The notes under the pieces were generated by a model. The model searched no databases, had not been told where the DNA came from, and saw only the letters and a program-made list of their open reading frames with translations. Shown here piece by piece: positions 16,249-46,734 of a stretch of DNA of 64,000 nt. This DNA is from Nocardia vinacea (GTDB taxonomy: Bacteria > Actinomycetota > Actinomycetes > Mycobacteriales > Mycobacteriaceae): positions 372,001 to 436,000 of the forward strand of contig NZ_CP109149.1 of NCBI RefSeq assembly GCF_035920345.1, read 5' to 3'. A program made the translations under genes and the position numbers. Every line of letters begins with the position of its first letter. Positions within the stretch are counted from its first letter, which is position 1.

Positions 16249-17493
<1,245 letters not shown>

Positions 17494-24668: not shown

Positions 24669-25643
24669 ATGTCGCAGACACGCCCCGGGGCGCAACGCAT
24701 CCAGATCGAGGAACTCGACGGCGGGGTTATCCTTGCGCGGTTCGTCGGCAATCAGCTGGGCCTGTTCGGCCGCGCTGATGCTCCCGAATTGTTCGAGCTC
24801 GTCGAGCGCGCCGACCGCGATCCCGACGTACGCGTGGTGGTGTTCACCGGGTCGCATCCGGGGCGGTTCATCAGCCATGCCGATCTGGCGTGGCTGCAGG
24901 AAGACGGTTCGGTCATACCGCCGGTGGGCCGCGGCATCACAAATGTGGTGGCGCGGATCGCCCATCTGTTCGGCCGCAACAAGCTCACCCGATGGGTGGC
25001 GCGGAAGACGCCGTTGACCGGGGCGGTCCAGCTCGATCTCATGCACGAGACCTTGCTCCGTATGGGCACCAGCTCCACGATCTTCGTGGCGGCCCTCAAC
25101 GGATCGGTGCTCGGTGTCGGCGCCGAGATCTCGTGGGCCTGTGACCTGCGATTGATGGCCGACGGCGACTATTTCATCGGACATCCGGAAGTGCTGCTCG
25201 GTTTTGCGCCCGGCGCCGGTGGCACCCAGCGCCTGCCTCGGCTCATCGGTTCACACCGGGCGCTGGTCGCGATCTTGGAGGGCAAGCCTTTCCCGGCCGA
25301 GGAAGCACTGGCGATCGGAGCGATCGACGAGATCGTCCCCGCCGACCGGCTCATTTCCCGGGCCGTAGAACGAGGCACACATCTCGCGGCCCGGCCGACC
25401 GAGGCGATCGCCGCCATCAAGCGGGCGGTGAATGTCGGTGGATCGCTGTCGATGGCGCAGGGCCTGCACCTCGAACGCACCGAATTCCTGGCATCGCTGC
25501 CGCAGCGGCAGCCGCAGGAGATCATGCTGCGCTACCTGCGCGAGACCGCGGACAGCGGTGAGTTGCCGCTGTATCGGCCCGGCGGATACGACGCGGCCCT
25601 TCGGCATGGCAGTGCCGCGCTCGGCACCACAACCAGGAAGTGA
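24669..25643 (+). CDS. Enoyl-CoA hydratase/isomerase (crotonase) family protein (right arm)
   Basis: The ATG at 24669, preceded by AAGGAGG, gives 324 residues. It is a paralogue of the left-arm hydratase: FTGSHPGRFISHADLAWLQE, NGSVLGVGAEISWACDLRLM, and HPEVLLGFAPGAGGTQRL with the conserved Glu. The same insertion separates the two oxyanion segments. It is the first gene of a plus-strand series that runs with small gaps to 41271, and its promoter region carries the triple operator. It likely hydrates or isomerises an unsaturated acyl-CoA made by one of the CoA ligases. Confidence 0.93.
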   Translation: MSQTRPGAQRIQIEELDGGVILARFVGNQLGLFGRADAPELFELVERADRDPDVRVVVFTGSHPGRFISHADLAWLQEDGSVIPPVGRGITNVVARIAHLFGRNKLTRWVARKTPLTGAVQLDLMHETLLRMGTSSTIFVAALNGSVLGVGAEISWACDLRLMADGDYFIGHPEVLLGFAPGAGGTQRLPRLIGSHRALVAILEGKPFPAEEALAIGAIDEIVPADRLISRAVERGTHLAARPTEAIAAIKRAVNVGGSLSMAQGLHLERTEFLASLPQRQPQEIMLRYLRETADSGELPLYRPGGYDAALRHGSAALGTTTRK

Positions 25644-26587
25644 AGAAAATGGCCCGAAAAGCAATACACAAATTCCGTCGCCGGACCGTGGATTTCCCCT
25701 CCGGCGACACCTTTTGCTCGGCCTGGCTGTATCTGCCGGACGTCGCCGTCGATAAGCCGGTGCCCGTGGTCGTGATGGGGCACGGTCTCGGTGCCACTCG
25801 GGAGATGGGACTGGCACCCTACGCCGAGCGATTCGCCGCGGCCGGGCTGGCGGTACTGGTGTTCACCTACCGCAATCTCGGCGACAGCGGCGGCGCGCCA
25901 CGTCAGGTGCTGTCGATGCCCCAGCAGTTGGCCGACTGGGACGCCGCGCTCGAATACGCGGTCGGCCTGCCGGAAATCGACCGTGCCCGGGTCGCGGTGT
26001 GGGGCAGCTCCCTCGGTGGCGGACATGCCATTTCGGTCGCCGCCCGGCATCCGGAACTTCGCGCGGCGGTCGCCCAATGTCCATTCACCGACGGACTTGC
26101 TTCGGCGGGTGGGCTGGGGCTGCGGGAGACGCTGGTGCTGTTGCGCGTCGTGGCCCGCGACCTGCTGGCGGCGGCACGGGGTGAGGATCCAATCTCGGTT
26201 CCGGTCGCGGCGGCACCCGGCCAGATGGCCCTGATGAACGCACCCGATGCACTGCCCGGCATGCAGGCACTGCTGCCTCCCGGATACCAGTGGATCAACC
26301 ATGCCGCGGCCCGCAGCGTCGCGAGCCTGATCCGGTATCGGCCGGGCCGATCGGCCAAGCGCATCGCCGCGCCGATCCTGATCTGTATCAGCGCAACCGA
26401 TTCGGTCGCCCCGCCCAAGCAGACCGAGCGCTACGCGCGCCAGGCACCGCGCGGCGATGTTCGGCTCTACGACGCCGGACATTTCGGCTTCTACCTCGGG
26501 GAGGCGTTCGAGCAACTGGTCGCCGATCAAACGGAGTTCCTGGTCCGCCACCTGCAGCCGGCGTCGGTCATCGGGACGGTGCGGTAG
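25640..26587 (+). CDS. Alpha/beta hydrolase, dienelactone-hydrolase-like (right arm)
   Basis: GTG at 25640 overlaps the hydratase stop (GTGA) and gives 315 residues; an ATG at 25649 is an alternative. The nucleophile is S124 in WGSSLGGG, the oxyanion turn is MGHGLG (46-51), and the C-terminal histidine is in YDAGHFGFY. It is highly similar to the left-arm hydrolase at 19866. A more distant relative lies at 45787. The conserved hydratase-hydrolase pairing suggests a linked reaction on an acyl-CoA or lactone intermediate. Confidence 0.9.
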   Translation: MKKMARKAIHKFRRRTVDFPSGDTFCSAWLYLPDVAVDKPVPVVVMGHGLGATREMGLAPYAERFAAAGLAVLVFTYRNLGDSGGAPRQVLSMPQQLADWDAALEYAVGLPEIDRARVAVWGSSLGGGHAISVAARHPELRAAVAQCPFTDGLASAGGLGLRETLVLLRVVARDLLAAARGEDPISVPVAAAPGQMALMNAPDALPGMQALLPPGYQWINHAAARSVASLIRYRPGRSAKRIAAPILICISATDSVAPPKQTERYARQAPRGDVRLYDAGHFGFYLGEAFEQLVADQTEFLVRHLQPASVIGTVR

Positions 26588-26590
26588 CCG

Positions 26591-27157
26591 ATGTCGAACG
26601 CGGCCATGCGCCTGTTGCTGTGGTTCCTCGGGCAGTGCATCGCCTGGGGATCCCGGTTCATGCCGTCTGTGCGGTCGCAGATAACCCGCACGCTGACCTT
26701 CGAGATGTCCGCTGGCGACAGGGTCGCCCGGCACTGGGTCTTCGATGGGCAATTGCGCCGCGCGACAACATATTCCGGGCATGCCGCCGTCGCGGACTGC
26801 GCGGTGCGTATCGGCTCGAGTGGTCAAGCGCTGCGCATCCTCAGCTCCCCGAAGGCGGTCGACAAGCTCGTCGACGCCCATCACCAGGGCACGGTCGATA
26901 TTCACGGCAGTGCCTTCGTGCTGCTGTGGTTCTTCGGCCTGACCCGCAAGTTCATCAAGATCGGGCGCGCGAGTGGACCCCGCCACCGGATACCCGATGC
27001 CTACCTCGCCCATGACCCTGCCGCCAGTGGGGCCGAGACCATCGTCATCGAGCCCGCTGTCCTGCGCCTGGATCCCGCATGGCGGGCCGCATGGAACGCG
27101 CGCTCCAAGTTGTCGATGATCCGCGCCGCCACCGACGAACCCATGCCGGAGCCATGA
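26591..27157 (+). CDS. Hypothetical protein, possible SCP2-like lipid-binding domain
   Basis: This 188-residue protein starts three bases after the hydrolase stop. An N-terminal hydrophobic helix (about 5-22) is followed by an alpha/beta segment, residues 33-115. The order of strands (FEMSAGD, RHWVFDG, CAVRIGSS), helix (ALRILSSPKAVDKLV) and the GTVDIHGS strand resembles SCP2/sterol-carrier folds. The resemblance is structural rather than by signature, so I keep it tentative. Its place beside an LDI-like enzyme and the mce importer would suit a carrier for a hydrophobic substrate. Confidence 0.5.
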   Translation: MSNAAMRLLLWFLGQCIAWGSRFMPSVRSQITRTLTFEMSAGDRVARHWVFDGQLRRATTYSGHAAVADCAVRIGSSGQALRILSSPKAVDKLVDAHHQGTVDIHGSAFVLLWFFGLTRKFIKIGRASGPRHRIPDAYLAHDPAASGAETIVIEPAVLRLDPAWRAAWNARSKLSMIRAATDEPMPEP

Positions 27158-27158
27158 C

Positions 27159-28724
27159 ATGACAGACACGACGATGCAGCATTCGATTCCGGCCGATGGC
27201 ACGACAACCTCGGTGGCAGGGCTGAACGACCGATCACTGGGCTGGCTGCGGTTCATGTGGGACAAGGCCACCACCGAGGACGATTGGTCCGATCAGGGGG
27301 AGCCGCATCCGTGGTGGGACCGCTACAGCGAGCCCCCGATGTGCGCGTTCCCGCGCTTCGACCTGGCCGAGATGGGTTATGTGCTGCCCATGATGGTGGA
27401 GGCGACTCCGGCATGGCGCGAGGGCTACACCCGCATTCTCGACGAACTGGCCCGCCGCTACGTCACCTTCTGGGGCGGTATCGACTGGAACACCCTGATC
27501 GGACCTGACCCGAATGTCGACAGATATCCGCCCGAATGGCTGATGGTGGTGCCCGAGCACCTGCGTGGCCGGTACGCCCTTCCGGGCTGGACCGGCAACG
27601 GCATCGAGCCGTGGGGGCTGCAACCGGACCCGGTCGGCTGCGACGGCAATCTTTTCTACCGCGGGTGGCTGAACCTGCTGCTCGGCATGCGTCACTATGT
27701 GTCGGGGCAGCCGACTCAAACCACGCCGTTCGAGGTCTCCGGATACCAGAACCGCAGGTTCACCTGGACACATCAGCGGATGGCGCAGTTCATCTCCGAT
27801 CAGATGGCTGCGCGCCCGCAGGGCCCGCACTGCGAGAACACCAAGATCTGGCCGTTCTGTGTGACCGCGGCCGGTCTCGGTCTCAAGATGTACGACTCAC
27901 TGCTGCACACCTCGCTCAACGAACCGTTCCTGGATTGGATCGCCTTCGCCAAGAAGCACTACATGGGACGGGACCGGCAAGGCCGCATCGATTGGGTCGC
28001 GTTTTTCTACGACCCGATCGAAAACGCGACGATGACGTTCCCCGGGCCGGTGAACGGCTACAGTGCGCTCACCCTCGTGCACTACATCTATCCGCAGGAC
28101 CCCCAACTCGGGATCGACCTCTACGAATCGGCGATGCGGCAGCTGGGCTGGAACAACCCGAAGGTGCCGGTCGTTCAGTTGGCCGACGACCCGCAGATGT
28201 TGTCCATCGGCCTGTGGATGGCTCGCGAAATCGGCGACACCACCACCTGGGACCGCCTGCGCACGGTGTCCGAAAGTCGGTTCGAGCCAAGGTATTTCGG
28301 CGAAGACGACAGCCGCTTCGCGTTCTGGCTCGGGCTGGACGAACAATGGCCGCGCGGCCAGATCAACGCCACCATGATGATGATCGAATGCGCCGAACCC
28401 GGTGCCTGGTCGCGGGTTTTCAACTCCCCGAACAACACGATGTACGACGAGCCGACAGTGCGCGGCCTCGACTATCCATCGATCGGTATCCGGCGCACCC
28501 ACAACGATATTCGGCGCCGAGTGCTCGAGATCGACACTTTCGCCGCGACACCGTCACGTCGGGGGACCCCGACTTCTTTCACGGTCGACAACCTGCCGTA
28601 CGACGCGATGATCTCGCTGGAAGTCGACGGCCGCCCCAGCGGCACCTGGCGCCGGTCACAACCCGGTGCGGTGGCGATCGACCTCGACATCGATACCCAC
28701 CGGATCCGCCTCACCTACACGTGA
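27159..28724 (+). CDS. Linalool dehydratase/isomerase-like enzyme
   Basis: A 521-residue protein. It contains H-Q-R-M in FTWTHQRMAQFISDQM, then HCENTKIWPFC, where C225 and C234 are nine residues apart, as are the two active-site cysteines of the Castellaniella linalool dehydratase/isomerase. The helical (alpha/alpha)6-barrel-like composition and the aromatic-rich N terminus (WWDRYSEPPMCAFPRFD) also fit. That enzyme isomerises linalool to geraniol and dehydrates it to myrcene. The N-terminal 40 residues show no clear signal peptide. I infer action on a tertiary or allylic alcohol, possibly a terpenoid or sterol side chain. It is in the operon upstream of the mce importer. Confidence 0.72.
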   Translation: MTDTTMQHSIPADGTTTSVAGLNDRSLGWLRFMWDKATTEDDWSDQGEPHPWWDRYSEPPMCAFPRFDLAEMGYVLPMMVEATPAWREGYTRILDELARRYVTFWGGIDWNTLIGPDPNVDRYPPEWLMVVPEHLRGRYALPGWTGNGIEPWGLQPDPVGCDGNLFYRGWLNLLLGMRHYVSGQPTQTTPFEVSGYQNRRFTWTHQRMAQFISDQMAARPQGPHCENTKIWPFCVTAAGLGLKMYDSLLHTSLNEPFLDWIAFAKKHYMGRDRQGRIDWVAFFYDPIENATMTFPGPVNGYSALTLVHYIYPQDPQLGIDLYESAMRQLGWNNPKVPVVQLADDPQMLSIGLWMAREIGDTTTWDRLRTVSESRFEPRYFGEDDSRFAFWLGLDEQWPRGQINATMMMIECAEPGAWSRVFNSPNNTMYDEPTVRGLDYPSIGIRRTHNDIRRRVLEIDTFAATPSRRGTPTSFTVDNLPYDAMISLEVDGRPSGTWRRSQPGAVAIDLDIDTHRIRLTYT

Positions 28725-28757
28725 CCACTTTCCTGTCACCCCTGAAAGGCCTTACCC

Positions 28758-29435
28758 ATGAGCACGTTTGCTGTATCGGCCCGTCGATTGTCCGAGCTTC
28801 TCGGGCTTGCCGAAACACCTGTTGCGGTGAGCTTCGACGTCACCACGAACGCGCCTGGTCCGGTGCCGGCCCAACCGGCCGGATGCTGCTTCTGGACACC
28901 GGCGCAGCAGCAACGCCTCGACACCGTCGCGGCCGATCACGCGCATTGCAGCGTCGGCAGCTACACGCACGGACTGATCCCGCTGGAACAGGCCGCCGCG
29001 GGCGCGGACACCGCCGCCCTGGTCGGTAGCGGCTGGGTCGGTGAGGCCGATCTGATGACCGCCGCGGCACTGCCCTTCCGCCCGTCCTCGATCACCTATC
29101 AACCGCTGGCCGAGGCCGAAAACCCAGCTGTGGTCCTGGTAAAACTCTCGCCGACCGCCCTGATGACTTTGCTCGGCGCCGTCCCAGATCTCACCCTGGC
29201 ACGCAAGCCGCAGTGCGTGATCGTCCCCCTCGCCCACGCCGGCCAGGTCGCGGTGAGTCCCGGTTGCGCGGTCAGCCGGACCCGAACCAACCTCCCCGAG
29301 GATGAGTTGACCTGCGCGCTTCCGGCCGGTGAGCTCGCGTCGATCCTCGACCGGCTGGAAGCCTCCACTGCTGCGGACCGGGCCGTGAGCGAGTTCGCGG
29401 CCGCTGACATGGCCAGCAATTTCTCCCCGGCGTGA
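28758..29435 (+). CDS. DUF169-family protein
   Basis: A 225-residue protein with the layout of DUF169: an N-terminal helix LSELLGLAETPVAVSF, a Cys-rich turn AGCCFWTP (C43, C44), and AHCSVGSYTHGL with C64. The three cysteines are conserved positions in this family and may bind a metal or cluster. The biochemical role of DUF169 proteins is unknown; several lie beside reductases or catabolic operons. It is placed 33 bp after the LDI-like gene and 49 bp before yrbEA, so it is probably co-transcribed. Confidence 0.75.
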   Translation: MSTFAVSARRLSELLGLAETPVAVSFDVTTNAPGPVPAQPAGCCFWTPAQQQRLDTVAADHAHCSVGSYTHGLIPLEQAAAGADTAALVGSGWVGEADLMTAAALPFRPSSITYQPLAEAENPAVVLVKLSPTALMTLLGAVPDLTLARKPQCVIVPLAHAGQVAVSPGCAVSRTRTNLPEDELTCALPAGELASILDRLEASTAADRAVSEFAAADMASNFSPA

Positions 29436-29484
29436 CCGTCGGATTTCCCGGTCAGTGATTTTCGAATAATCGGAAGGTTCGACG

Positions 29485-30285
29485 ATGGTGGACACCGGCA
29501 GCGAGATTTCCTCGCGCGGGCGATGGGACGGGATGCTGTCTGCGGCAGCGGTCGCCCCGCGCGCGGTGGGGGAGTTCTTCGCAACCGTCTTGGATACCGG
29601 GCGGATGCTGCCGCGGCGGCCCTTCCAATTCCGGGAGTACGTGCACCAGGCATGGTTCATCGCCAGTGTCTCGATCTTGCCGACCTTGCTGATCGCGATC
29701 CCGTTCTGCGTGATGGTGATCTTCCAGATCAACGTGCTGCTCAACGAGATCGGCGCCATCGATCTATCCGGCGCCGGCGCCGGTATCGCGGTGATCCGCG
29801 AGATCGGACCGGTCGCAACGGTTTTGGTTGTCGCCGGGGCCGGAGCCACCGCGATCTGCGCCGATCTCGGCGCCCGCACCATCCGCGAGGAGATCGACGC
29901 CATGCGGGTGCTCGGGATCGATCCGATTCAACGGCTGGTCGTGCCGCGGGTACTCGCCTCCACGACGGTCGCGCTATTTCTCAACGGGCTCGTGACGGCA
30001 GTCGGCTTGACCGGTGGCTACCTCTACGCGGTGTATCTGCAGGGCGCGACTCCCGGCCAGTTCATCACCGCAATTCCCTTGTTGACCGGGATACCGGATC
30101 TGTTGGTCAGTGAGCTCAAGGCTGGGGTGTTCGGGTTGCTGGCCGCGCTGGTCGCCTGCCATCTGGGTCTGCACGCCAAAGGCGGGCCGAAGGGAGTCGG
30201 TGACGCCGTCAATCAGACCGTCGTCTTCAGCTTCGTCCTGCTCTTCCTGGCCAACTCCATCATCACCACGCTGTGGCTGCAATGA
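29485..30285 (+). CDS. yrbEA: YrbEA/MlaE-like permease of the Mce system
   Basis: A 266-residue integral membrane protein with the MlaE permease pattern. Hydrophobic segments are near residues 55-80, 95-118, 150-180 and 195-260. The conserved coupling-helix stretch IREEIDAMRVLGIDPIQRLVVPRVLA follows the third segment (only part is quoted here as IREEIDAMRVLG). It forms the inner-membrane channel with YrbEB and is powered by an MceG ATPase that is not encoded in this window. It is the first of eight importer genes (yrbEA-mceF). Confidence 0.96.
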   Translation: MVDTGSEISSRGRWDGMLSAAAVAPRAVGEFFATVLDTGRMLPRRPFQFREYVHQAWFIASVSILPTLLIAIPFCVMVIFQINVLLNEIGAIDLSGAGAGIAVIREIGPVATVLVVAGAGATAICADLGARTIREEIDAMRVLGIDPIQRLVVPRVLASTTVALFLNGLVTAVGLTGGYLYAVYLQGATPGQFITAIPLLTGIPDLLVSELKAGVFGLLAALVACHLGLHAKGGPKGVGDAVNQTVVFSFVLLFLANSIITTLWLQ

Positions 30286-30295
30286 ACGGATCGAT

Positions 30296-31183
30296 ATGAC
30301 CACCACCAGCAAAGAGCCGGGGGCGATCGAGCTGCTCCGGCAGAAGTCGTGGGGACGCCGGCTCACCGCGACCGCGACGCGTCCGGTCGACGCGGTAGGC
30401 GGCCTCGGCCACCAGCTGTCGTTCCATCTGCACGGAATCGGTTGGATTCCGCGCACGCTGCGCCGCTACCGCGGTGAGGTCGTCCGCCTCATCGCCGAGG
30501 TGAGCCTCGGTACCGGTGCGTTGGCGGTGATCGGCGGAACCGTCGTCATCGTCGGATTCCTCACCGCCGCAGCCGGTTACGAGGTGGGCCAGCAGGGCAG
30601 TAACTCGCTGGGGCGGGTCGGTGTCGAGGCGATGTCGGGGTTCATTTCCGCGTTCTTCAATACGCGCGAGGCGATTCCGGTGGTCGCGGGAGTCGCGTTG
30701 ACCGCGACCGTCGGTGCCGGATTCACCGCGCAACTCGGTGCGATGCGGGTGAGCGAGGAGATCGACGCACTCGAGGTGATGTCGATTCCCGCGGTCCCCT
30801 ATCTGGTCACGACCCGCATCCTGGCCGGACTGATCGCGATCATGCCGCTGTACGGCATCGCGCTGTTCATGGGTTACGCGTCGACGCAGTTCGTCAGCAT
30901 TGTGCTGTCCGGGCAGTCGCCGGGCACCTACGAGCACTACTTCAACGTCTTTCTCGTACCGAGCGATGTGGTGTGGTCGCTGGTGAAAGTCATTGTGTTC
31001 TCAGTTGTCATCATGTCGGTGCACTGCTATCACGGCTACCACGCCTCCGGCGGCCCCGCCGGGGTGGGGGTGGCGGTCGGCCGGGCGGTGCGCACCTCGT
31101 TGATCGCGATCATGATCGTCGACCTGATCATCGGCGTCGCGGTCTACGGTGGTGTCCACTCGACGGTGCGGGTGTCCGGATGA
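30296..31183 (+). CDS. yrbEB: YrbEB/MlaE-like permease of the Mce system
   Basis: The ATG at 30296 gives 295 residues; the frame extends upstream inside yrbEA, but with no suitable start. The MlaE-family signature is VSEEIDALEVMSIPAVPYL, again a coupling helix for the ATPase. Four to five membrane segments follow an amphipathic N terminus (residues 1-60). It pairs with YrbEA as the heterodimeric permease. Its stop overlaps the mceA ATG. Confidence 0.96.
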   Translation: MTTTSKEPGAIELLRQKSWGRRLTATATRPVDAVGGLGHQLSFHLHGIGWIPRTLRRYRGEVVRLIAEVSLGTGALAVIGGTVVIVGFLTAAAGYEVGQQGSNSLGRVGVEAMSGFISAFFNTREAIPVVAGVALTATVGAGFTAQLGAMRVSEEIDALEVMSIPAVPYLVTTRILAGLIAIMPLYGIALFMGYASTQFVSIVLSGQSPGTYEHYFNVFLVPSDVVWSLVKVIVFSVVIMSVHCYHGYHASGGPAGVGVAVGRAVRTSLIAIMIVDLIIGVAVYGGVHSTVRVSG

Positions 31184-32346
31184 ACATCGAAGTCTCGCGT
31201 CGGCGCGCCTTGCTGCTCGGAATCAGTGCTCTTGTCGCATTCGCCCTCGCCTGGACCGGTGCCATCGCTTCCTGCAGTGGCGAATTCATCGCGAGCACAC
31301 GCGTCTACCTGGTCGCGGATCGGGCCGGGTTGCTGATGGGTCCCGGATCCGACGTGAAGGTGCGCGGCGTCGTCATCGGGCGGGTGAGCGCCGTCGACTT
31401 CGACAACGACCGGGCGAAGCTGACGCTGGACCTGAATCCCGGCCAAGCGCACCGGATTCCAGCCAACGTCGGCGCCGAGATTGCGCCGACCACCTTGTTC
31501 GGACGCAAGTTCGTCACGCTGGTTTGGCCGGATCAACCGGCGAAGACGACCCTGACCGCAGGGTCGGTGATCGACGGCTCGAAGGTGCCCGTCGAGGTGA
31601 ACGACGTCTTCGACGCATTGCTGACCATTCTGAAAACGGTTGAGCCGCAAAAGGTGAACGCCACGCTTACCGCGCTCGGGACGGCGCTGGGCGGGCACGG
31701 CACACGGTTCGGCGATCTGCTGGTGTCCACGGATCGCTATCTCGGGCAGTTCAATGAGGCCATTCCGACATTGCGGCGCGATGTCCCGTTGCTCGCCGAC
31801 AATCTCGACACCTTTGCCGCCGCCACACCGGATTTCATGACCACCCTGCAGAACCTCTCGACCACCGGTAACACCATTGTCGAGAAACAGGCGAGCCTGA
31901 GTGCCTTCCTGCTGTCGTTCACCGAATTCGGCAATACCGGCAAGGCATTTATCGACGCGACGGCGACACCGCTGATCGGCGCCGTCGAGGCACTGGAACC
32001 GAGCGTTCGAGTGCTCGCCGAGCAGTCGCCGTCGTTTCCGTGTCTGCTCTCGGCTCTCAACCAGGACCGCAAGCTCCTCGAACGGGCGCTCGGCGGTGGT
32101 CGGCCGGGCCTGAACATCCTGAGCACCCTGCTCCTGGGCGACGCGCCCTACCGCTACGACAAGGATCTGCCTGTGAACGGTGCCGATAACGCACCCTCGT
32201 GCTACGGATACCCGTACACCCCCGACGGCCCGGCCGCCGGGCACGCCGACTTCAATACCGGCACAACGGTTTACGGCCCCATTCAGGGGCCGGAGGATCT
32301 GCTCGGCAACCCGTTCGCGTCCTTGATCTATGGACTGACCCGATGA
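31180..32346 (+). CDS. mceA: MceA-like substrate-binding protein
   Basis: A 388-residue MCE/MlaD protein. An Arg-rich N terminus and hydrophobic segment (residues about 7-30) are followed by the MCE domain (about 40-118: RAGLLMGPGSDVKVRGVVIGRV) and a long helical region that builds the periplasmic tunnel. The N terminus ends in I-A-S-C32, which fits the minimal lipobox, unusual for MceA. The ATG overlaps the yrbEB stop. MceA-F form a hetero-hexameric tube that carries lipids or sterols across the cell envelope. The late Cys and Tyr-rich C terminus (SCYGYPYTPDG) is typical. Confidence 0.95.
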   Translation: MNIEVSRRRALLLGISALVAFALAWTGAIASCSGEFIASTRVYLVADRAGLLMGPGSDVKVRGVVIGRVSAVDFDNDRAKLTLDLNPGQAHRIPANVGAEIAPTTLFGRKFVTLVWPDQPAKTTLTAGSVIDGSKVPVEVNDVFDALLTILKTVEPQKVNATLTALGTALGGHGTRFGDLLVSTDRYLGQFNEAIPTLRRDVPLLADNLDTFAAATPDFMTTLQNLSTTGNTIVEKQASLSAFLLSFTEFGNTGKAFIDATATPLIGAVEALEPSVRVLAEQSPSFPCLLSALNQDRKLLERALGGGRPGLNILSTLLLGDAPYRYDKDLPVNGADNAPSCYGYPYTPDGPAAGHADFNTGTTVYGPIQGPEDLLGNPFASLIYGLTR

Positions 32347-33362: not shown

Positions 33363-33369
33363 TTCCGCC

Positions 33370-34359
33370 ATGAAATCGTTCGCCGAACGCAACCCCCTCC
33401 GCATGGGACTGGTCGGCACCGGCATCGTCGTCGCCTTGCTGGTCGGCCTGTTCAACTACGAGCGCATCCCCGGATGGCCGGGGCACCGGACGATCGTGGC
33501 CGAGTTCGCCGACGCCAGCGGACTGAACACCGGTGACGCCGTGCAGATTTCGGGCATCGAGGTGGGCAACGTCGATAGCGTCACACTCAGCGGCGACCAC
33601 GTCGATATCGCGCTGCGGGTCGACACCCACGGACAGCGACTCGGCACCCGCACCACCGCGGCGATCAAGGTCGAAACGGCTCTCGGCCGCCGCTACGTCG
33701 AGCTGCGGCCCGACGGTGACGGCGTCATTGGTGACCGAATTCCCGTGGACCACACCACTTCCGGTTTCGACATCACCGAATCGCTGAACCAACTCACGAC
33801 GCGGTTGGCAGGCACCGACAAAAAGCAACTGGCGGACGCCGTCGACAGCGTATCGAAGGTGCTCACCTCGTTACCGGACAATCTGCGCCCGTCGCTGGAC
33901 GGTGTGTCGCGACTGTCGGAGACCATCGCCTCCCGCGACGGCGCTGTGCGAGATCTGCTGGACCGCACCCAATCGGTGACCGGCATTCTCGCGCAACGCA
34001 ATCAGAATCTGACCGCACTGATGACCGACGGCGGTTCGCTGTTCGCCGCGCTCAACGACCGGGCCGCCACAATTCGCGCGCTGCTGGTCAATGTTCGGGC
34101 TGTCAGCACCGAGCTACACGGATTGGTCCAGGACAACAAGCAGACGCTGGCACCGATGCTGGCCGAACTCGACCGGGTTGTCGGCCTGCTCAACAGCAAC
34201 TACGACAACATCAACGCCGCGATCACCGGCTTGAAACCATTCGTGACCCAGCTCGGTGAGGTCGTCGGCAGTGGACCGTTCTTCGGTGTACTGCTGCACA
34301 ACATCGCCCCTGCCAACCTCAACGGGCAGCAGCCCGGCAGCCCCGGAGGAGGACGTTGA
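33370..34359 (+). CDS. mceC: MceC-like substrate-binding protein
   Basis: A 329-residue MCE-family protein beginning seven bases after mceB. The anchor is at residues 11-28, the MCE domain at about 40-115 (ADASGLNTGDAVQISGIEVG), and a long helical region follows with repeated Asn/Leu/Asp patterns (for example NSNYDNINAAITGLKPF). The C terminus is short and rich in Gly and Pro. The stop overlaps the mceD start. Confidence 0.95.
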   Translation: MKSFAERNPLRMGLVGTGIVVALLVGLFNYERIPGWPGHRTIVAEFADASGLNTGDAVQISGIEVGNVDSVTLSGDHVDIALRVDTHGQRLGTRTTAAIKVETALGRRYVELRPDGDGVIGDRIPVDHTTSGFDITESLNQLTTRLAGTDKKQLADAVDSVSKVLTSLPDNLRPSLDGVSRLSETIASRDGAVRDLLDRTQSVTGILAQRNQNLTALMTDGGSLFAALNDRAATIRALLVNVRAVSTELHGLVQDNKQTLAPMLAELDRVVGLLNSNYDNINAAITGLKPFVTQLGEVVGSGPFFGVLLHNIAPANLNGQQPGSPGGGR

Positions 34360-35564
34360 TGGCATCGCCGCGCGCGGGCTGGTCCCGCATCCCTATCCCA
34401 GGACGGATTCTCGCCGCCCTGCTCGTCGCGGCGATCATCGTCACCGGTGCCACCTGGTGGATGACGCGCGATGCGACCGTCCGGGTCACCGCTTACTTCA
34501 CCAATTCGGTCGGCCTGTATCGCGGCGACCGCGTCACGCTGCGCGGCGTGCCGATCGGCGACGTCGACGAGGTCACACCGGTCGGCGATCGCGTCCGCGT
34601 CACAATGCATTTCGATGCGTCGCATCCGGTCAGCGCCGACACCCACGCCGTGATCGTGGCGCCTACGTTGGTGTCGGGCCGCTACATCCAGCTCATCCCG
34701 AAACGAGGAGCGGAACCGGAACTGCGCGACGGGGCCGTCATCCCGCTCGAACGCACCGCCGTCCCGGTGGAGTACGACCAGATCAAGCAGCAGGTCACCG
34801 ATCTCGCCACCCAGCTCGCGCCCAAGCCTGGCGATGATACGGGCACCCTGGCCCGATTCACCGACGCCACCGCGAAAGCACTCGGCGGCAACGGCGCAAC
34901 ACTGAACGACACGCTGGTCAACCTGTCCAAGGCGATGCGGACACTGGCCGATGGCGGACCCGACCTGTTCGCCACCGTGCGGAACCTGCAGACGGTGATC
35001 TCCGCGCTTGCGGCGAACGACGCTCAGGTCCGGAATTTCGTCGACCAGCTGGCCGGGGTGTCGAATCTGCTGAACGACAACCGGACTCAGCTCGACGCGG
35101 CCTTGAACGCGGTCCAGGCGATGCTGCCCGAGATCCGCGGCCTGGTCGCCGACAACCGAGATGCGCTGAAAGCCGATGTCACTTCACTGATTCGGATCAC
35201 CTCGCTGCTGGTGAACCGGGAGGACGACCTTGCCCAGATCCTGCATATCGCGCCGACCGCGCTGGACGATCTCTACAACATCATTGATCCGTCGTCGAAG
35301 TCGGTGACCGCGAATCTGGTCATCCCGGATTTTCCGGATCCGATGTCGCTTATCTGTGCACTGCTCACCACCGTCGACGCACCGCAGGCCGAATGCTCCC
35401 GCGCCAGTACACAATTCGGTGACCTCTTCGGCGCAGCGGCGCGTGCCGCGACGGGTGCCGGCTCGGTACCGCAGCCGAAGCCCGTCGCGGGCGACCCCGG
35501 GTTGTCCGGCTTACCGCCCATCCCAGGACTGACCGACCTTCTCATCCCCGGAGCCCGACGATGA
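34359..35564 (+). CDS. mceD: MceD-like substrate-binding protein
   Basis: The ATG at 34359 (preceded by GGAGGAGG) overlaps the mceC stop and gives 401 residues; a TTG just before it is less likely. The anchor is at about residues 16-37, followed by the MCE domain (FTNSVGLYRGDRVTLRGVPIG) and the helical tail. MceD proteins are typically among the longer subunits, with a Pro-rich C-terminal tail, here PQPKPVAGDPGLSGLPPIPG. It is part of the tunnel complex. Confidence 0.95.
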   Translation: MASPRAGWSRIPIPGRILAALLVAAIIVTGATWWMTRDATVRVTAYFTNSVGLYRGDRVTLRGVPIGDVDEVTPVGDRVRVTMHFDASHPVSADTHAVIVAPTLVSGRYIQLIPKRGAEPELRDGAVIPLERTAVPVEYDQIKQQVTDLATQLAPKPGDDTGTLARFTDATAKALGGNGATLNDTLVNLSKAMRTLADGGPDLFATVRNLQTVISALAANDAQVRNFVDQLAGVSNLLNDNRTQLDAALNAVQAMLPEIRGLVADNRDALKADVTSLIRITSLLVNREDDLAQILHIAPTALDDLYNIIDPSSKSVTANLVIPDFPDPMSLICALLTTVDAPQAECSRASTQFGDLFGAAARAATGAGSVPQPKPVAGDPGLSGLPPIPGLTDLLIPGARR

Positions 35565-36685
35565 AACCCTCGATCCGACGGCAGACCGGTAGCGTGCTAC
35601 TGCTGGGCGCGCTGCTCAGCGCTGGTTGCCGATTCGACGGAGCCAATTCGATCCCGCTGCCGGGCAACGCGATTCACCACGGTGCCTACACCGTACGGGT
35701 GCAGCTGCGCGACACCCAGAATCTGATCGCCAACTCGCTGGTCAAGGCCGACAACGTCACTGTCGGCACCATCACCGCGATCACCGTCCGCGACTACATC
35801 GGGGATATCACCGTCGAAATCGACAAGAGCGTCCAGGTTCCCGCGAACAGTACCGCCCGTCTCGCGCAGACCAGCGTGCTCGGTGCCCAGTATCTGGAGC
35901 TGATCACCCCCAAGGACGGCAAGACCGACCGGCCGCTGCGCGACGGCGACGTGATCCCGATCTCGGCGACCACCGAATACCCCGCGACCGAGGACGTGCT
36001 CGCCGCGCTATCGCTGGTTCTCAACGGCGGTGGTCTGGAACAGATCCGGACCATCATGACCGAACTGAACGACGCGTTCGGTGGCCGCGAGGACGCGATA
36101 AACCGATCCTTCGCCCGACTGGTCGCCTTCGTCGACGGCTTGGACACCCAACGCGACAACATTGTGCGTGCCATCGACAGCCTCGACGGATTCTCGAAAG
36201 AGCTTGCCGCACAGAAGGACACACTCGGCGTCGGAATCGAGCAGATACAACCGGCATTGGCCGTGCTCAACGACCAGAAGACCCAACTGACGACCATGCT
36301 CGACCGGGTCGGTGCCTTCGGCGCGCAAGCCGCGCAGGTGTTGCACAGCAGCCGCGACGACCTCACCGCCGACCTGCACAACCTGCAGCCCACGCTGACC
36401 CAGCTCGCCGCGGCGGGCTCCGATCTCGCCGGGTCGCTGCTCGTCGCCCTGAGTTTCCCGTTCCCGGTCACGGTCGCCGAACGCGCCGTCAAGGGCGACT
36501 ACGTCAATTTGTTCCTCACTCTCGACCTCACCGTCGAAGGCATCCAGAACAAGGTCATCGGCAGCATCCCGTTCAACCGCCTCGTCCCGATGTCCAACCG
36601 CGCCGTCAACCCGCTCATCGCACCGACCCAACCGGCGTCCGGCGACCTGCCGGCGACCGCCGACCCGAACGGGGGACCCCGATGA
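35561..36685 (+). CDS. mceE: MceE-like lipoprotein
   Basis: A 374-residue MCE protein with a lipoprotein signal: basic start MKPSIRR, a hydrophobic stretch and lipobox LSAGC with C23. The MCE domain covers about 44-122 (DTQNLIANSLVKADNVTVG), followed by helices to about 300. MceE (LprK-type) is the canonical lipid-anchored subunit of actinobacterial Mce systems, which confirms the gene order. The ATG overlaps the mceD stop and its TGA overlaps the mceF start. Confidence 0.95.
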   Translation: MKPSIRRQTGSVLLLGALLSAGCRFDGANSIPLPGNAIHHGAYTVRVQLRDTQNLIANSLVKADNVTVGTITAITVRDYIGDITVEIDKSVQVPANSTARLAQTSVLGAQYLELITPKDGKTDRPLRDGDVIPISATTEYPATEDVLAALSLVLNGGGLEQIRTIMTELNDAFGGREDAINRSFARLVAFVDGLDTQRDNIVRAIDSLDGFSKELAAQKDTLGVGIEQIQPALAVLNDQKTQLTTMLDRVGAFGAQAAQVLHSSRDDLTADLHNLQPTLTQLAAAGSDLAGSLLVALSFPFPVTVAERAVKGDYVNLFLTLDLTVEGIQNKVIGSIPFNRLVPMSNRAVNPLIAPTQPASGDLPATADPNGGPR

Positions 36686-38148
36686 AAACTCGTCTGGTCA
36701 AGGGCCAACTCGTCGTCTTCGCGATCCTGGCGGTGGTCAGCCTCGGCTACGGTTCGGTCCACTACATCGGTGCCGAGCGTCTCACGGGCCTTGGAACCTA
36801 CACGGTTACAGCCGATTTCAGCGACTCCGGTGGTCTGTACGAATCCGCGTCGGTCACCTACCGCGGCGTCGAGGTCGGCCGCGTCACCGGCATCGATCTC
36901 AACGGTGAGACCATCCGGGTGCGCATGCAATTGCGCGACGACCACGACATCCCGGCGTCGGCCGGCGCCACGGTCAAGAGCATGTCCGCGATCGGCGAAC
37001 AGTACGTGGACCTGATTCCATCGGATGACAAAGCGCCCTATCTGCGCGATGGCAGCTCGATTCCGCTGTTGAAGACGACCGTGCCGATCCCGACCGGCGA
37101 CGTGCTCGACAAGACGCAGATGCTGCTGAAGAGCGTGTCCACCGACTCGCTGCGGACCGCGATCGACGAGACTTTCCACGCCGTCAATGGCACCGGCCCC
37201 GCCCTGGCGACGCTCATCGAATCCTCCGCCAAGCTACTCGACCTCGCCCAAGCCGATATCGGCCCCACCCTCACCTTGCTCGACGACGCCGAACCACTAT
37301 TGCGCACCGGAAATTCGGTTCGCACCGAAATTCGTTCCGCGACAAACGATCTAGCATCGTTCACAACGCAGCTCACGTTGAACGACGCGCAACTGCGCGA
37401 TGCGCTGGATCAGGGGCCGGCCGCAGCCGACACCGTGTCCGGCACCCTCGCCGATCTCACGACACCACTTCCGGTGCTGCTGGCCGATCTGCAAACCGTG
37501 GGACAGGTGCTCCGGGTCAACGTCGCGGGATTACGCCAGATCCTGGTCGTGTATCCAGCGCTTGCGACCGGCTTGAACTACACCGGGGTCGCCGCGGGCC
37601 TGCAGACCACCGACGACACCACGGGCCCGCAGCTGCCGCTGGACGTGAAATTCGGAAACACCGAAAACCCGCCACCGTGCACCGAGGGATACCAGAGCAC
37701 ACAGCGCCGCGACCCATCCGACACGGGACCGGCCGTGACGTCGACAGGCAACTACTGCCAGGTCGCACCGGACAACCCGAAGGTCATCCGCGGTGCCCGG
37801 AACATCCCCTGCGCCTCCGATCCCTCGCTGCGCACCGCCGACATCGCGAACTGCCCGGGTGGCCTGCCATCGACCTGGCCGGAAATGCTTGCGCACCCAG
37901 ATGATCCCGGCCCAGCCGCGAACTCGCAAAGCTCGGAGCCCACCCCGGCCGCGCCGACCGGACGCGCACCCATCCCCAGCCCGACCTCGTCCCCGCCGGT
38001 CGTGCCCGCCGCCGTGACAGCTCCGTACGCCGAGCACGACGGGACCTTCCGGGGACCCGACGGTCTCACCTATGTCCTCGGGCAGCGAGCCCAAATGGCC
38101 GCCCAAGCAAAGGAGTACCAGGGATGGCAATCGCTACTGATCAAATAA
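36682..38148 (+). CDS. mceF: MceF-like substrate-binding protein
   Basis: A 488-residue MCE protein with an N-terminal anchor (7-25) and MCE domain (about 40-115, DSGGLYESASVTYRGVEVG). A helical region follows to about 320, then a Cys-containing segment and a Pro/Ser-rich linker (PTPAAPTGRAPIPSPTSSPP). The C-terminal block FRGPDGLTYVLGQ is typical of MceF. The last 25 nucleotides overlap the next gene. Confidence 0.95.
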   Translation: MKTRLVKGQLVVFAILAVVSLGYGSVHYIGAERLTGLGTYTVTADFSDSGGLYESASVTYRGVEVGRVTGIDLNGETIRVRMQLRDDHDIPASAGATVKSMSAIGEQYVDLIPSDDKAPYLRDGSSIPLLKTTVPIPTGDVLDKTQMLLKSVSTDSLRTAIDETFHAVNGTGPALATLIESSAKLLDLAQADIGPTLTLLDDAEPLLRTGNSVRTEIRSATNDLASFTTQLTLNDAQLRDALDQGPAAADTVSGTLADLTTPLPVLLADLQTVGQVLRVNVAGLRQILVVYPALATGLNYTGVAAGLQTTDDTTGPQLPLDVKFGNTENPPPCTEGYQSTQRRDPSDTGPAVTSTGNYCQVAPDNPKVIRGARNIPCASDPSLRTADIANCPGGLPSTWPEMLAHPDDPGPAANSQSSEPTPAAPTGRAPIPSPTSSPPVVPAAVTAPYAEHDGTFRGPDGLTYVLGQRAQMAAQAKEYQGWQSLLIK

Positions 38149-38690
38149 ATGCCGACGAGGCCTCATCCGAGGTCGACTCCACTTCTGACTCGGCGCACCG
38201 TCCAGGTTCACCATGGCGGGTGTGGGCGATCGCCATCGCCACCGGAGTCGTGGTGACGCTCGTCGGCGTGAGCTCGCAGCTCTGGCTCAATGTCCACCAC
38301 AACCACCAAGACGACAGCCGCGATCGCGCCGTGCTCGATACCGCGCGCCGGATCGCCGTCCAATTGGTCACCCTCAATCATGATTCGGCCAAACAGAATC
38401 TCGACGCGATCGCCGCCGATTCGACCGGATCATTCCGTGACCAATGGGACAAGATCTCCGGCAACTTCGTCGCGGTGCTGCAGAACGGCAAGGTCGAATC
38501 CACCGGTGAGGTCAAAGAAGCCGGCATCGTCGCCGTCGACGACGCGCACGCCACCGTGCTGACCGCGGTCACCTCCACGGTCAAGAACACCGAAGCCCCC
38601 GAGGGGCAGCAGCGGGTCTACCGCATGAAGATGACCCTCGATCACACCGACGGCCGATGGCTCGTCTCGAACGTGGAGTTCGTCGCATGA
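38124..38690 (+). CDS. Mce-associated membrane protein (Mas/Mam-like), first
   Basis: A 188-residue protein starting inside the end of mceF. After a charged cytoplasmic tail it has one membrane helix (about 34-54, WAIAIATGVVVTLVGVSSQL). The periplasmic NTF2-like region includes ARRIAVQLVTLNHDSAKQNL, the F-R-D-Q-W helix, and the final RWLVSNVEFV strand. Mce-associated proteins stabilise Mce complexes in mycobacteria. It is followed by a second copy with an overlapping start. Confidence 0.88.
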   Translation: MAIATDQINADEASSEVDSTSDSAHRPGSPWRVWAIAIATGVVVTLVGVSSQLWLNVHHNHQDDSRDRAVLDTARRIAVQLVTLNHDSAKQNLDAIAADSTGSFRDQWDKISGNFVAVLQNGKVESTGEVKEAGIVAVDDAHATVLTAVTSTVKNTEAPEGQQRVYRMKMTLDHTDGRWLVSNVEFVA

Positions 38691-39217
38691 AACTCCTTCC
38701 ACGCCAATGGTTCCGGCATGTGTCCGCGCTCGGCAGACGGGCCACCATCGCCATATTCGTCGTGCTCGCGCTCATGCTGTGCGCGGCGACCACAACGACC
38801 GTCCTGTTCGGACACAGCACTTCGCAGCACAGCGCGGCCGAGGCCGCCGCGCGGGCAGCGCGGGATTCGGCGCAATCACGAATCCCCACCGTGCTGTCCT
38901 ACGACTTCAACACCATCGACACTGAATTCCCCAAGGTCACCGACAATCTGACCGGCACCTTCCGGGACGACTTCAGCAAACTCAGCTCGACGGTGATCAT
39001 CCCTGCGGCACATCGCGATTCGATCGTCACCACTGCGAAGGTCGTCGAAACCTCTGTAGTCACAGCAACAGTCGACAAAGTCGCAGTCCTGCTGTTCCTC
39101 GACCAGGAAACCACGAGCAGCAAATATCAGGGACCGCGGCTGGACGGCAGCCGCATCCGAGTGACCATGACTCATGCCGACGACCGATGGCTCATCTCCG
39201 ACATCACACCCGTCTGA
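38687..39217 (+). CDS. Mce-associated membrane protein (Mas/Mam-like), second
   Basis: The ATG overlaps the preceding stop, giving 176 residues. A membrane helix spans about 19-40, and the soluble domain resembles the first Mas protein, ending in RWLISDITPV. The FNTIDTEFPKVTDNLTGTFR stretch is typical of the family. Two Mas genes after mceF is the normal layout in Nocardia/Mycobacterium-type clusters. The soluble domain is expected outside the membrane, beside the Mce tunnel. Confidence 0.88.
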   Translation: MKLLPRQWFRHVSALGRRATIAIFVVLALMLCAATTTTVLFGHSTSQHSAAEAAARAARDSAQSRIPTVLSYDFNTIDTEFPKVTDNLTGTFRDDFSKLSSTVIIPAAHRDSIVTTAKVVETSVVTATVDKVAVLLFLDQETTSSKYQGPRLDGSRIRVTMTHADDRWLISDITPV

Positions 39218-39280
39218 TATCGCCGAAACCACAACACAATTCGCCGGTCCTTACCGCTGCACCGAAGAAAGCAACAGATA

Positions 39281-40792
39281 ATGAATCTCGCCGAAAACCT
39301 CGTGATCTCTGCCCGCGACCATCCCCACAGCGTCGCGATTCGGCTCGACGAGACAGCCGTCTCCTACGCGCAATTGGACACGCTCAGTCAGCGCATCGCC
39401 GGTCTACTGGCCGCATATGGTGTGACGCCCGGTGACCGAGTCGCGATCATGCTCCCGAATGTCCCGCATTTCGCTGCTCTCTACTACGCCATCCTGCGGG
39501 TGGGAGCAGTCGTAGTGCCGATGAACCCCTTGCTCAAGGAACGTGAAGTCGCCTACTACCTGCGTGACTCCGGTGCCAAGCTGATCTTCGTCTGGCACGA
39601 CTTCGCCGCCGCGGCCGTGGCCGGTGCCGAGCAGGTTGGTAGTACTGCGGTTCCGGTTGTTCCGGGCGAATTCCTCGACTGGGTGATGGCGGTCGACCCG
39701 CGCGCCGATGTGATCGATCGCCGACCCGATGACACCGCCGTGATCCTGTACACCTCCGGCACCACCGGCCTGCCGAAAGGTGCCGAGCTGACCCACGCCA
39801 ACCTCTGCGGCAACGTCGACGTGGTCGCGCAGACCCTCCTGCACCTCAGCGCCGAGGATGTGATCTTCGGCGGGCTACCACTGTTCCATGTCTTCGGACA
39901 GACATGCGCACTCAACGCCGCCGTGCGCGTCGGCGCGACGCTGACGCTCCTGCCGCGATTCGACCCGGCCAAGGCCTTGGAGATCCTGGTCCGGGACCAA
40001 GTGACAATCTTCGAAGGGGTGCCGACGATGTACTCGGCGCTGCTGAATCATCCGGGTGCCGTCGACGCGGATCTCGGCGCGCTGCGGATCTGCGTCAGTG
40101 GTGGATCCGCCATGCCGGTCGAGGTGTTGCACGCGTTCGAGAAGCAATTCGGATGCGTGGTGCTCGAGGGGTACGGGCTGTCGGAGACCTCGCCCGCCGC
40201 CTGCTTCAATCACCCCGATCGGACCCGCGTGGCCGGTTCCATCGGTACCCCTGTCCGCGGCGTCGAGTTGCTGGTGGTCGACGACGAGGGCGGCGCGGTC
40301 TCCGACGGTGTCGTCGGTGAGATCGTGATTCGCGGCGACAACATCATGAAGGGCTACTGGAACAAGCCCGAGGAAACCGCCGAGGCCATCAGAGCGGGCT
40401 GGTTTCACACCGGCGATCTGGGCCGGATCGACGACAACGGCAACTACTTCATCGTCGACCGCAAGAAGGACATGATCATTCGCGGTGGCTACAATGTATA
40501 TCCCCGCGAGATCGAAGAAGTGCTCTACGAATACCCAGATATCACCGAAGCGGCGGTCCTTGGTGTGGCGCATGACGAACTCGGCGAGGAAGTCGCCGCC
40601 GCCGTCGCCCTAAAACCCGGTGCCACGGCTACTTCCGATGAAATACGCGATTTCGTCAAGGAACGCGTCGCTGCCTACAAGTACCCACGGCATGTGCACA
40701 TCTTCGACGCGTTGCCCAAGGGACCGACCGGGAAGATCCTCAAGCGCGAAATCGCCCTTCCGGTCGATCGAAGCCGATCGACCATTTTCTGA
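39281..40792 (+). CDS. Long-chain-type acyl-CoA synthetase (FadD-like, right arm)
   Basis: A 503-residue ANL ligase. The P-loop LYTSGTTGLPKG lies at 156-167, GYGLSETSP is the A5 motif, GDLGRIDDNGNYFIVDR carries the conserved Asp, the hinge is RKKDMIIRGGYNVYP, and the lysine is in PTGKILKREI. It starts 63 bp after the second Mas gene and probably converts the imported acid to its CoA ester, so that the hydratase at 24669 can act on it. It is the counterpart of the ligase at 18337 in the left arm, although the two are not close copies. Confidence 0.95.
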   Translation: MNLAENLVISARDHPHSVAIRLDETAVSYAQLDTLSQRIAGLLAAYGVTPGDRVAIMLPNVPHFAALYYAILRVGAVVVPMNPLLKEREVAYYLRDSGAKLIFVWHDFAAAAVAGAEQVGSTAVPVVPGEFLDWVMAVDPRADVIDRRPDDTAVILYTSGTTGLPKGAELTHANLCGNVDVVAQTLLHLSAEDVIFGGLPLFHVFGQTCALNAAVRVGATLTLLPRFDPAKALEILVRDQVTIFEGVPTMYSALLNHPGAVDADLGALRICVSGGSAMPVEVLHAFEKQFGCVVLEGYGLSETSPAACFNHPDRTRVAGSIGTPVRGVELLVVDDEGGAVSDGVVGEIVIRGDNIMKGYWNKPEETAEAIRAGWFHTGDLGRIDDNGNYFIVDRKKDMIIRGGYNVYPREIEEVLYEYPDITEAAVLGVAHDELGEEVAAAVALKPGATATSDEIRDFVKERVAAYKYPRHVHIFDALPKGPTGKILKREIALPVDRSRSTIF

Positions 40793-40842
40793 CGGTCTTG
40801 CGAAATCCGCTCGGCCGCTTGTCGATTCGAAAGGAAAGCCCC

Positions 40843-41271
40843 ATGCCGCTCTATCAATGTCTGGTCCCAGCCGGGTCACTCGATGCGGATCACCGCGCCG
40901 ACCTGGCGGAGGCTATCACCGCCATTCATACCTCGGTCACCGGTGCGCCCCGCGGATTCGTCAACGTTGTTTTTGTCGAATACGAGCCGTCGGCATTCTT
41001 CACTGCCGGAAAGCCCAACACAGTGTCGGTGATCAGTGGGAATATCCGGGCTGGGCGGGATCGTGCATCGCGGGCCGAACTGCTGACGCGACTGTCGGAG
41101 GCGTGGGTCGCCATCACCGGCCAGGACACCCGCAGTCTGCTGCTCGGGCTTACCGAGCTCGATCCCACCTCCATCATGGAGGCCGGGCTGATCATGCCCG
41201 CTCCCGGAGAGGAAGCGGCGTGGTTGGAACGTCACAAGCAGGAACTCGGCGAACTGCTTTCGAGCCAATAG
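40843..41271 (+). CDS. Tautomerase-superfamily protein, cis-CaaD-like
   Basis: The ATG at 40843, with AAGGAAAG upstream, gives 142 residues beginning Met-Pro. After Met removal Pro would be the N-terminal catalytic base of the tautomerase superfamily. An in-frame ATG at 40798 would bury this proline, so I reject it. The length and MPLYQCLVPAGSLDADHR resemble cis-3-chloroacrylic acid dehalogenase (about 149 residues) rather than the 62-residue 4-OT type. It may isomerise or hydrate an unsaturated acid. It is the last gene of the right-arm operon. Confidence 0.82.
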   Translation: MPLYQCLVPAGSLDADHRADLAEAITAIHTSVTGAPRGFVNVVFVEYEPSAFFTAGKPNTVSVISGNIRAGRDRASRAELLTRLSEAWVAITGQDTRSLLLGLTELDPTSIMEAGLIMPAPGEEAAWLERHKQELGELLSSQ

Positions 41272-46728: not shown

Positions 46729-46734
46729 CGTGGT

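Follow-up and report, generated by a model that had tools for sequence, protein, structure and literature searches.

Importers of the Mce1 and Mce4 types are encoded in the order yrbEAB-mceA-F-mas, with six TIGR00996 proteins and a CoA ligase in the operon, and few mce operons have a known substrate. Here we analyse an operon of the same layout that is joined to a gene for an LDI-like protein in a Nocardia genome; the window, as we call the whole stretch of 64,000 nucleotides analysed, comprises bases 372001-436000 of this single-contig 10.36-Mb genome. In contrast to the Mce1/Mce4 systems, the mce block of the window belongs to a Nocardia subclade and lies inside an unrelated TetR-LDI regulon. 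In Nocardia that degrade rubber, and in related bacteria, Mce has been suggested to take up oligo-isoprenoids (PMC9070631 and PMC8538451), and a link between mce and isoprenoid degradation has thereby already been proposed for such Nocardia (PMC9070631). The mce cluster of that lcp-mce system adjoins isoprenoid-degradation genes, an arrangement like that of the window; compared with the system as given there, the window has an LDI-like protein, an SCP2-fold protein and two hydratase-hydrolase sets behind TetR operators. No lcp was recognised among the annotated genes here, no search aimed at lcp having been made.

We propose, with moderate confidence, that the locus is a mosaic, TetR-controlled regulon that would import and degrade an isoprenoid-type substrate. 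The features most worth reporting are its mosaic origin with probable scars, its closed regulon and the existence in nature of comparable loci that have or lack the importer. Here the importer is bound up with a regulator, an operator and catabolic enzymes, and an importer-less version occurs naturally in Nocardioides; the substrate of the importer and the reaction of the LDI-like enzyme are therefore testable together. Such tests could give a function to a large branch of PF18566 that, by record titles, extends over Actinobacteria, Nitrospira, SAR86, marine Alphaproteobacteria and others. If the proposal is true, the locus is a natural case of an importer re-wired to a new oily food source. 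A preliminary description of this DNA knew the combination of importer, LDI-like enzyme and cis-CaaD-type tautomerase from no described mce operon, and the open-access literature searched indeed contained no paper combining ‘linalool dehydratase’ with ‘mce’; a broad open-access literature search with DUF169 and SCP2 gave no title on the cluster among the matches listed.

The LDI-mce operon

Seventeen genes follow one another on a single strand (24669-41271), with intergenic gaps of -25 to +63 bp. Families were assigned by Pfam and NCBIfam profiles, and all the genes that the preliminary description had named on this strand are present; open reading frames were called by script, and start codons are accordingly approximate. 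The same description gave gaps of at most 63 bp, as measured here, and the spacing fits one operon.

24669..25643, +, enoyl-CoA hydratase 1 (ECH), both glutamates kept in alignment
25640..26587, +, alpha/beta hydrolase 1 (ABH)
26591..27157, +, SCP2-fold protein with N-terminal helix, putative hydrophobic-substrate carrier
27159..28724, +, LDI-like protein (PF18566; Pfam Ldi) with extra C-terminal beta domain
28758..29435, +, DUF169 protein with invariant Cys/His positions (Pfam; alignment, n=7)
29485..30285, +, yrbEA permease, first gene of the putatively inserted block (MlaE 210.5 bits; 93% to own-genome paralogue)
30296..31183, +, yrbEB permease (MlaE 204.5 bits)
31180..32346, +, mceA (MlaD, Mce4_CUP1, TIGR00996)
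32343..33362, +, mceB (TIGR00996)
33370..34359, +, mceC (TIGR00996)
34356..35564, +, mceD (TIGR00996)
35561..36685, +, mceE (TIGR00996)
36682..38148, +, mceF (TIGR00996, MlaD)
38124..38690, +, mas1 (no Pfam/NCBIfam match; 73% in locus L104)
38687..39217, +, mas2 (no Pfam/NCBIfam match; 61% in L104)
39281..40792, +, CoA ligase of the mce block (Pfam AMP-binding; 82% to the L104 CoA ligase)
40843..41271, +, Tautomerase_3 protein, cis-CaaD-like (Pfam; Ps01740, 5uif, E 2e-27)

Two YrbE/MlaE permeases are followed by six MCE proteins, which is the make-up of an Mce importer operon, and all six match TIGR00996 (188-235 bits, cut-off 140.5). The 17 operon genes include no MceG ATPase gene. The genome as a whole contains 11 six-gene mce sets (66 of its 68 MlaD matches, grouped by place). 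Scans within the operon found two consensus promoters where 2.6 were expected, no excess, and 12 consensus terminators where 9.4 were expected, little excess. Both residues that we take to be the catalytic glutamates of enoyl-CoA hydratases are present in the product of 24669-25643 (alignment with 7eum).

A proposed TetR-controlled regulon

The operator conforms to the type ATAAC-N3-GTTAT and is nearly palindromic. Allowing at most one mismatch, the half-site pattern occurs eight times in the window against 0.36 expected, seven times inside the cluster and once outside it, at 11125, and none of 100 shuffles reached eight. The 13-base form has four sites in the whole genome, all in the cluster, and the reversed control pattern has none. 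Chance occurrence of the operator was rejected by the shuffles and by this genome-wide count. The triple operator that the preliminary description had placed at the start of the operon is thus real. The operon that it had outlined also stands, but co-regulation reaches further, over about 18.3-42.7 kb, and in Nocardia vinacea NBRC 16497 the neighbourhood is conserved from the gene at 15.1 kb. The co-regulated unit adds the following features to the operon:

18337..19854, -, CoA ligase 2 (CoAL_up; Pfam AMP-binding; 70% in Nocardioides immobilis, L010)
19866..20825, -, alpha/beta hydrolase 2 (ABH_up; Pfam; 74% in L010)
20822..21787, -, enoyl-CoA hydratase 2 (ECH_up; Pfam ECH_1; 77% in L010), start placed at the ATG downstream of the operators
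21856..21890, no strand, two operator copies at the ECH_up promoter (pattern search; kept in L009 and L011)
21935..22657, +, TetR2 regulator (Pfam TetR_N and TetR_C_33; 52% identical to TetR1)
22728..23621, -, short-chain dehydrogenase (SDR; Pfam; 73% in L010)
23631..23643, no strand, operator, perfect 13-bp palindrome, SDR promoter (pattern search)
23733..24434, -, TetR1 regulator, transcribed away from the LDI-mce operon (Pfam; 63% in L010, 69% in L011)
24573..24609, no strand, triple operator of the LDI-mce operon at 24573, 24585 and 24599 (pattern search)
41693..42676, -, MDR-family oxidoreductase (ADH; PIG3/quinone-reductase-like, below the cut-off of that model; 78% in L010, 76% in L013)
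42826..42838, no strand, operator, perfect 13-bp palindrome, 150 bp upstream of ADH (pattern search)

Two operators thus precede ECH_up-ABH_up-CoAL_up, others precede SDR and ADH, and three variants precede the LDI-mce operon. Since TetR1 and TetR2 are 52% identical, either is a candidate binder. The best solved relatives of the SDR are generic.

The paired operator form (at most one mismatch) was found in three of 148 Nocardia genomes, namely our own, N. vinacea NBRC 16497 and G096. Among 154 loci compared, every locus with a TetR1/TetR2-like gene carries operator sites; once the loci fetched by the pattern (L134-L142) and the duplicates of G096 and N. vinacea are set aside as no independent support, these are six of six (L009-L013 and L127). 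Sites were present at five of 138 loci lacking such a gene, or four of 137 once our own ADH locus, which had been fetched by the operator pattern itself, was dropped; the pattern was fixed after the six loci had been viewed and some of the 137 overlap, which makes these figures a description and not an independent test.

The catabolic set in other genera

Nocardioides immobilis has the whole catabolic and regulatory set of 12 genes in an unbroken row (63-84% identity), in the order TetR1, ECH, ABH, SCP2-like, LDI-like, DUF169, ADH, SDR, TetR2, ECH_up, ABH_up, CoAL_up. There is no mce in this 21-kb locus, and ADH directly follows DUF169. A contig of a Mycobacterium metagenome-assembled genome (L011; 12.9 kb, starting inside CoAL_up) holds ten of the 12 genes, also without mce, and partial sets occur in Nocardioides pocheonensis (L012) and Gordonia asplenii (L013). 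Operators are kept in all four loci.

We surveyed 80 LDI-like loci by tblastn (at most 10 kb per side, many contigs being shorter; two loci are overlapping stretches of one contig). An SCP2-like gene was present in 25, DUF169 in 11 and mce/yrbE in one, that of N. vinacea NBRC 16497, the closest named relative found (LDI-like protein 93% identical). With mce at one of 80 loci and a complete catabolic set without it in N. immobilis, mce as an ancestral component of the LDI pathway was rejected. By parsimony the mce-less state is probably the older one, and mce and the tautomerase would be an addition restricted to two Nocardia, outside the conserved pathway. The preliminary description spoke of one import-and-degradation unit; this holds in that importer and catabolic enzymes share one operator, though not for the conserved pathway, from which importer and tautomerase are absent.

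The LDI-like gene is rare near its present host. A close relative was found in two of 150 Nocardia genomes (own included), with weak matches only in seven others (20.5-25.2 bits); strong matches were found in two of 397 genomes of the order, with four more weak, and matches at E<=1e-50 in three of 394 genomes of the class. Plain vertical inheritance of the gene in Nocardia is disfavoured by this rarity. A 62% relative lies on two large Streptomyces plasmid records, and our genome has no second copy at E<=0.001. In the seven Nocardia genomes with weak matches only (L091-L098), all LDI-family proteins are distant (25-29% identity) and may form a second LDI-fold subfamily.

Clustering of neighbours over the 80 loci returned varied catabolic genes (CoA ligase, SDR, GST, glyoxalase, CoA transferase, luciferase-like monooxygenase) and pointed to no substrate. 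The LDI-like genes of SAR86 and marine alphaproteobacterial loci among L040-L088 are 41-46% identical. A CoA ligase and a gene of cluster C15 occur at eight SAR86 loci, two of them from one contig, and the order at L061 is CoA ligase, GST (C15), LDI-like, SDR, glyoxalase.

Origin of the mce block

The nearest relatives of the yrbE-mce-mas-CoA-ligase block are LDI-less Nocardia mce loci: L104, about 175 kb away in the same genome, L126 (genome G052) and L127 (genome G096). Over 11 concatenated proteins the block shares 82% identity with L104 and 92% with N. vinacea NBRC 16497, and a tree of these proteins (FastTree, midpoint root) places the window block and N. vinacea as sister to L104, L126 and L127. 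A PucR-type regulator gene follows the CoA ligase in L104. Beyond the operon the window retains a trace of this gene:

41286..41387, +, remnant of 34 residues of the PucR C-terminus (tblastn 76%, E 3e-14; blastn 79% over 100 bases)

At the corresponding place N. vinacea retains PucR residues 5-164 (74%). We read these remnants as probable scars of a transplanted segment. Judged from its sequences, the regulon is a mosaic of two parts with different kinship, a shared catabolic and regulatory set and a Nocardia mce block with the tautomerase. By parsimony, the block would have been inserted between DUF169 and ADH of the older set, making importer and enzymes one operator-controlled unit. In L127 a TetR1 relative (77%) adjoins the LDI-less mce operon; as G096 thus has the TetR, the paired operator and the mce block and no LDI-like match in its genome, regulator and importer are linked also without LDI.

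The mce loci and the candidate substrate

The order at L104 is a membrane desaturase/hydroxylase with a fused ferredoxin-reductase module, then aldehyde dehydrogenase, GMC oxidoreductase and mce-mas-CoA ligase. L126 has the hydroxylase and the aldehyde dehydrogenase at 92-94%. The logic of L104 and L126 would be to hydroxylate a hydrophobic compound, oxidise it twice, import it and activate it with CoA. Relatives of the L104 GMC enzyme, aldehyde dehydrogenase and CoA ligase occur in the N. pocheonensis LDI locus at 60, 48 and 48%, and a GMC relative occurs in the Gordonia LDI locus at 44%. We infer that oxygenase and LDI-like enzyme may be two entry routes feeding the same alcohol-acid-CoA track. 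The preliminary description had suggested a hydrophobic allylic or tertiary alcohol as substrate. A hydrophobic-alcohol theme is borne out by the paralogous locus L104 and by the GMC oxidases in two LDI loci of other genera, while a tertiary or allylic structure is conjecture. As the most likely substrate class we favour isoprenoids, either alcohols or alkenes of mono- to diterpenoid size or acids of the oligo-isoprenoid kind.

In L104 itself (positions 67-5802, about 219066-224801 of our genome) the desaturase is fused to FAD, NAD and 2Fe-2S reductase domains, and this gene, the aldehyde dehydrogenase and the GMC oxidase lie directly upstream of mce; the yrbEA paralogue of our genome is at position 225146. 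These upstream genes are possibly a locus for oxidation and uptake of hydrocarbons or terpenoids.

The LDI-like protein and its companions

The LDI-like protein matches the Pfam Ldi profile of PF18566 at 37.7 bits (cut-off 26.1) and has the LDI barrel fold. C225 and C234 align with the active-site cysteines 170 and 179 of LDI and are invariant in 43 of 43 sequences (active-site residues as listed in the portion of PMC12455561 available to us). Asp38 and Tyr44 of LDI fall outside the aligned stretch, where the invariant D41 is no more than a positional candidate. Compared with the LDI of Castellaniella defragrans (5hlr, 5i3t, 5g1u), the window protein is 18% identical, has an extra C-terminal beta domain of ~90 residues (about 430-521) and no signal peptide obvious by eye, and its gene sits among CoA enzymes, an SCP2-fold protein and DUF169. 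Five proteins outside the closest branch (P0072, P0086, P0096, P0112 and P0115) have Cys-rich C-terminal tails with CC pairs, which the window protein lacks.

The label SCP2-like of the preliminary description is right by fold for the 26591-27157 protein, despite failed profile searches: no Pfam profile, that of SCP2 included, matched any of 13 family members at E<=1, and hhalign against one SCP2 protein of our genome gave a probability of 0.4%. UbiJ, an SCP2-domain protein of ubiquinone synthesis (PDB 6h6n-p), belongs to another pathway; the window protein differs from it by the N-terminal helix, and sequence-profile similarity to SCP2 proteins was not found. A Pfam SCP2 match does occur elsewhere in the window, at 61932-62168 inside an open reading frame (61548-62210) whose start is HxlR-like by eye; its product is possibly a regulator with a lipid-binding SCP2 domain.

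DUF169 has no convincing solved relative (best E 0.39). Its C43, H61, C64, C153 and C170 are invariant in seven aligned sequences, which suggests a putative metal or redox site.

The tautomerase had been called cis-CaaD-type, which is only an approximation: its closest solved structure is Ps01740 (5uif, E 2e-27), with cis-CaaD at E 6e-7 at best. It keeps the equivalents of Pro1, His28, Arg70, Arg73 and Glu114 (alignments with 5uif, 3n4g, 9ngh and 7ms8). Protein and cis-CaaD/Ps01740 group share the tautomerase superfamily; the window protein differs by a Gly aligned with Tyr103 of 3n4g. The cis-CaaD labels Pro1, His28, Arg70, Arg73, Tyr103 and Glu114 are those that we presume for this enzyme.

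Proposed mechanism and alternative readings

In the regulon that we favour, TetR1 or its paralogue TetR2 would silence four transcription units by binding ATAAC-N3-GTTAT-type operators when inducer is absent, and the hydrophobic substrate or its CoA ester would free the repressor from them. The Mce complex, with an ATPase encoded elsewhere, would carry the substrate across the mycolate envelope, and the SCP2-fold protein would hand it to the cytosolic LDI-like enzyme, which may add, remove or shift a hydroxyl on an alkene, either unactivated or allylic. The alcohol would then pass to SDR and ADH for oxidation, a CoA ligase would activate the acid and the two hydratase-hydrolase pairs would shorten it. 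We also offer, as a tentative extension, that a portable mce-CoA-ligase cassette was captured by a foreign TetR regulon and so turned to a new substrate, the SCP2-fold protein acting as a chaperone that feeds a membrane-borne isoprenoid to a cytosolic LDI-fold enzyme whose active site is His-less; Nocardia would then couple the cassette to differing catabolic modules (hydroxylase/oxidase or LDI-like), with new alkene/alcohol chemistry feeding CoA-dependent degradation.

Several points weigh against the favoured regulon, whose substrate and joint expression are predictions from sequence. The LDI-like label of the preliminary description is upheld by the fold and both active-site cysteines, but the active-site His128 of LDI is aligned with Trp170 (sequence alignments); linalool-type chemistry is therefore not to be assumed, and the reaction may differ. 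That the protein is no dehydratase, and is another cysteine-dependent (alpha/alpha)6-barrel enzyme, acting for example on CoA esters or glycosides, seems unlikely to us. Promoters could hide in the gaps between mas2 and ligase (63 bp) and between DUF169 and yrbEA (49 bp). The annotated regulon genes include neither an aldehyde dehydrogenase nor an acyl-CoA dehydrogenase, and the aldehyde dehydrogenase at 13314-14852 lies outside the regulon. A close ADH was not found on the N. vinacea contig stretches read, and ADH is therefore maybe dispensable. On the yrbEA side of the block no scar was seen, L126 shows no GMC match, and the GMC and aldehyde dehydrogenase genes of L012 do not adjoin an operator site. 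Since mce is present at only one of the 80 LDI-like loci, the pathway works elsewhere without Mce.

The last point bears on a somewhat unlikely alternative, that the mce block, equipped with its own CoA ligase, imports generic fatty acids or wax-type lipids like Mce1 and was captured by chance behind the LDI promoter, LDI and mce acting on different compounds. It would fit with a block and CoA ligase standing alone in the same genome and occurring in other Nocardia (CoA ligase whole or partial in L104 and L127), with LDI-like loci of other genera lacking mce, and with a WS/DGAT-like gene that adjoins the block in L127 and a fragment resembling it in L104 (by eye); mce operons with a FadD exist. 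The same TetR family and operator beside the LDI-less mce block of G096 speak against such chance, as does an arrangement kept in two species (92% identical over the block) while the adjoining PucR gene decayed. Degradation of sterol or triterpenoid side chains, with Mce4-like sterol import and the LDI-like enzyme acting on a tertiary or allylic side-chain alcohol, is quite improbable. The match of mceA to Mce4_CUP1 recalls Mce4, yet Mce proteins in general match this profile; the SCP2 fold and two Rieske-type oxygenases upstream (7650-8906 and 10186-11454) would suit it, and the GMC enzymes of L104, L012 and L013 presumably resemble cholesterol oxidases, Pfam giving only GMC for L104. Against it, the annotated genes include no recognised gene for steroid ring degradation, none having been searched for.

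Neighbouring genes in the window

Two genes of the outer conserved neighbourhood lie beyond the regulon:

15117..15950, -, ABH15 alpha/beta hydrolase (Pfam; 87% in N. vinacea L149, 58% in Gordonia asplenii L013)
16252..17493, -, old-yellow-enzyme family flavin oxidoreductase (OYE; Pfam Oxidored_FMN; 91% in N. vinacea, 69% in Gordonia L013), possibly a dienoyl/enone reductase

Together with TetR17 these outer genes are kept at 87-91% in N. vinacea, and Gordonia has relatives of all three at 55-69%. The two Rieske-type genes (7650-8906 and 10186-11454) encode ring-hydroxylating oxygenase alpha subunits, lie on the same strand and are 68% mutually identical. Downstream, a second catabolic group (45790-51285) comprises an FMO-like monooxygenase beside an alpha/beta hydrolase, with a GMC oxidoreductase further on.

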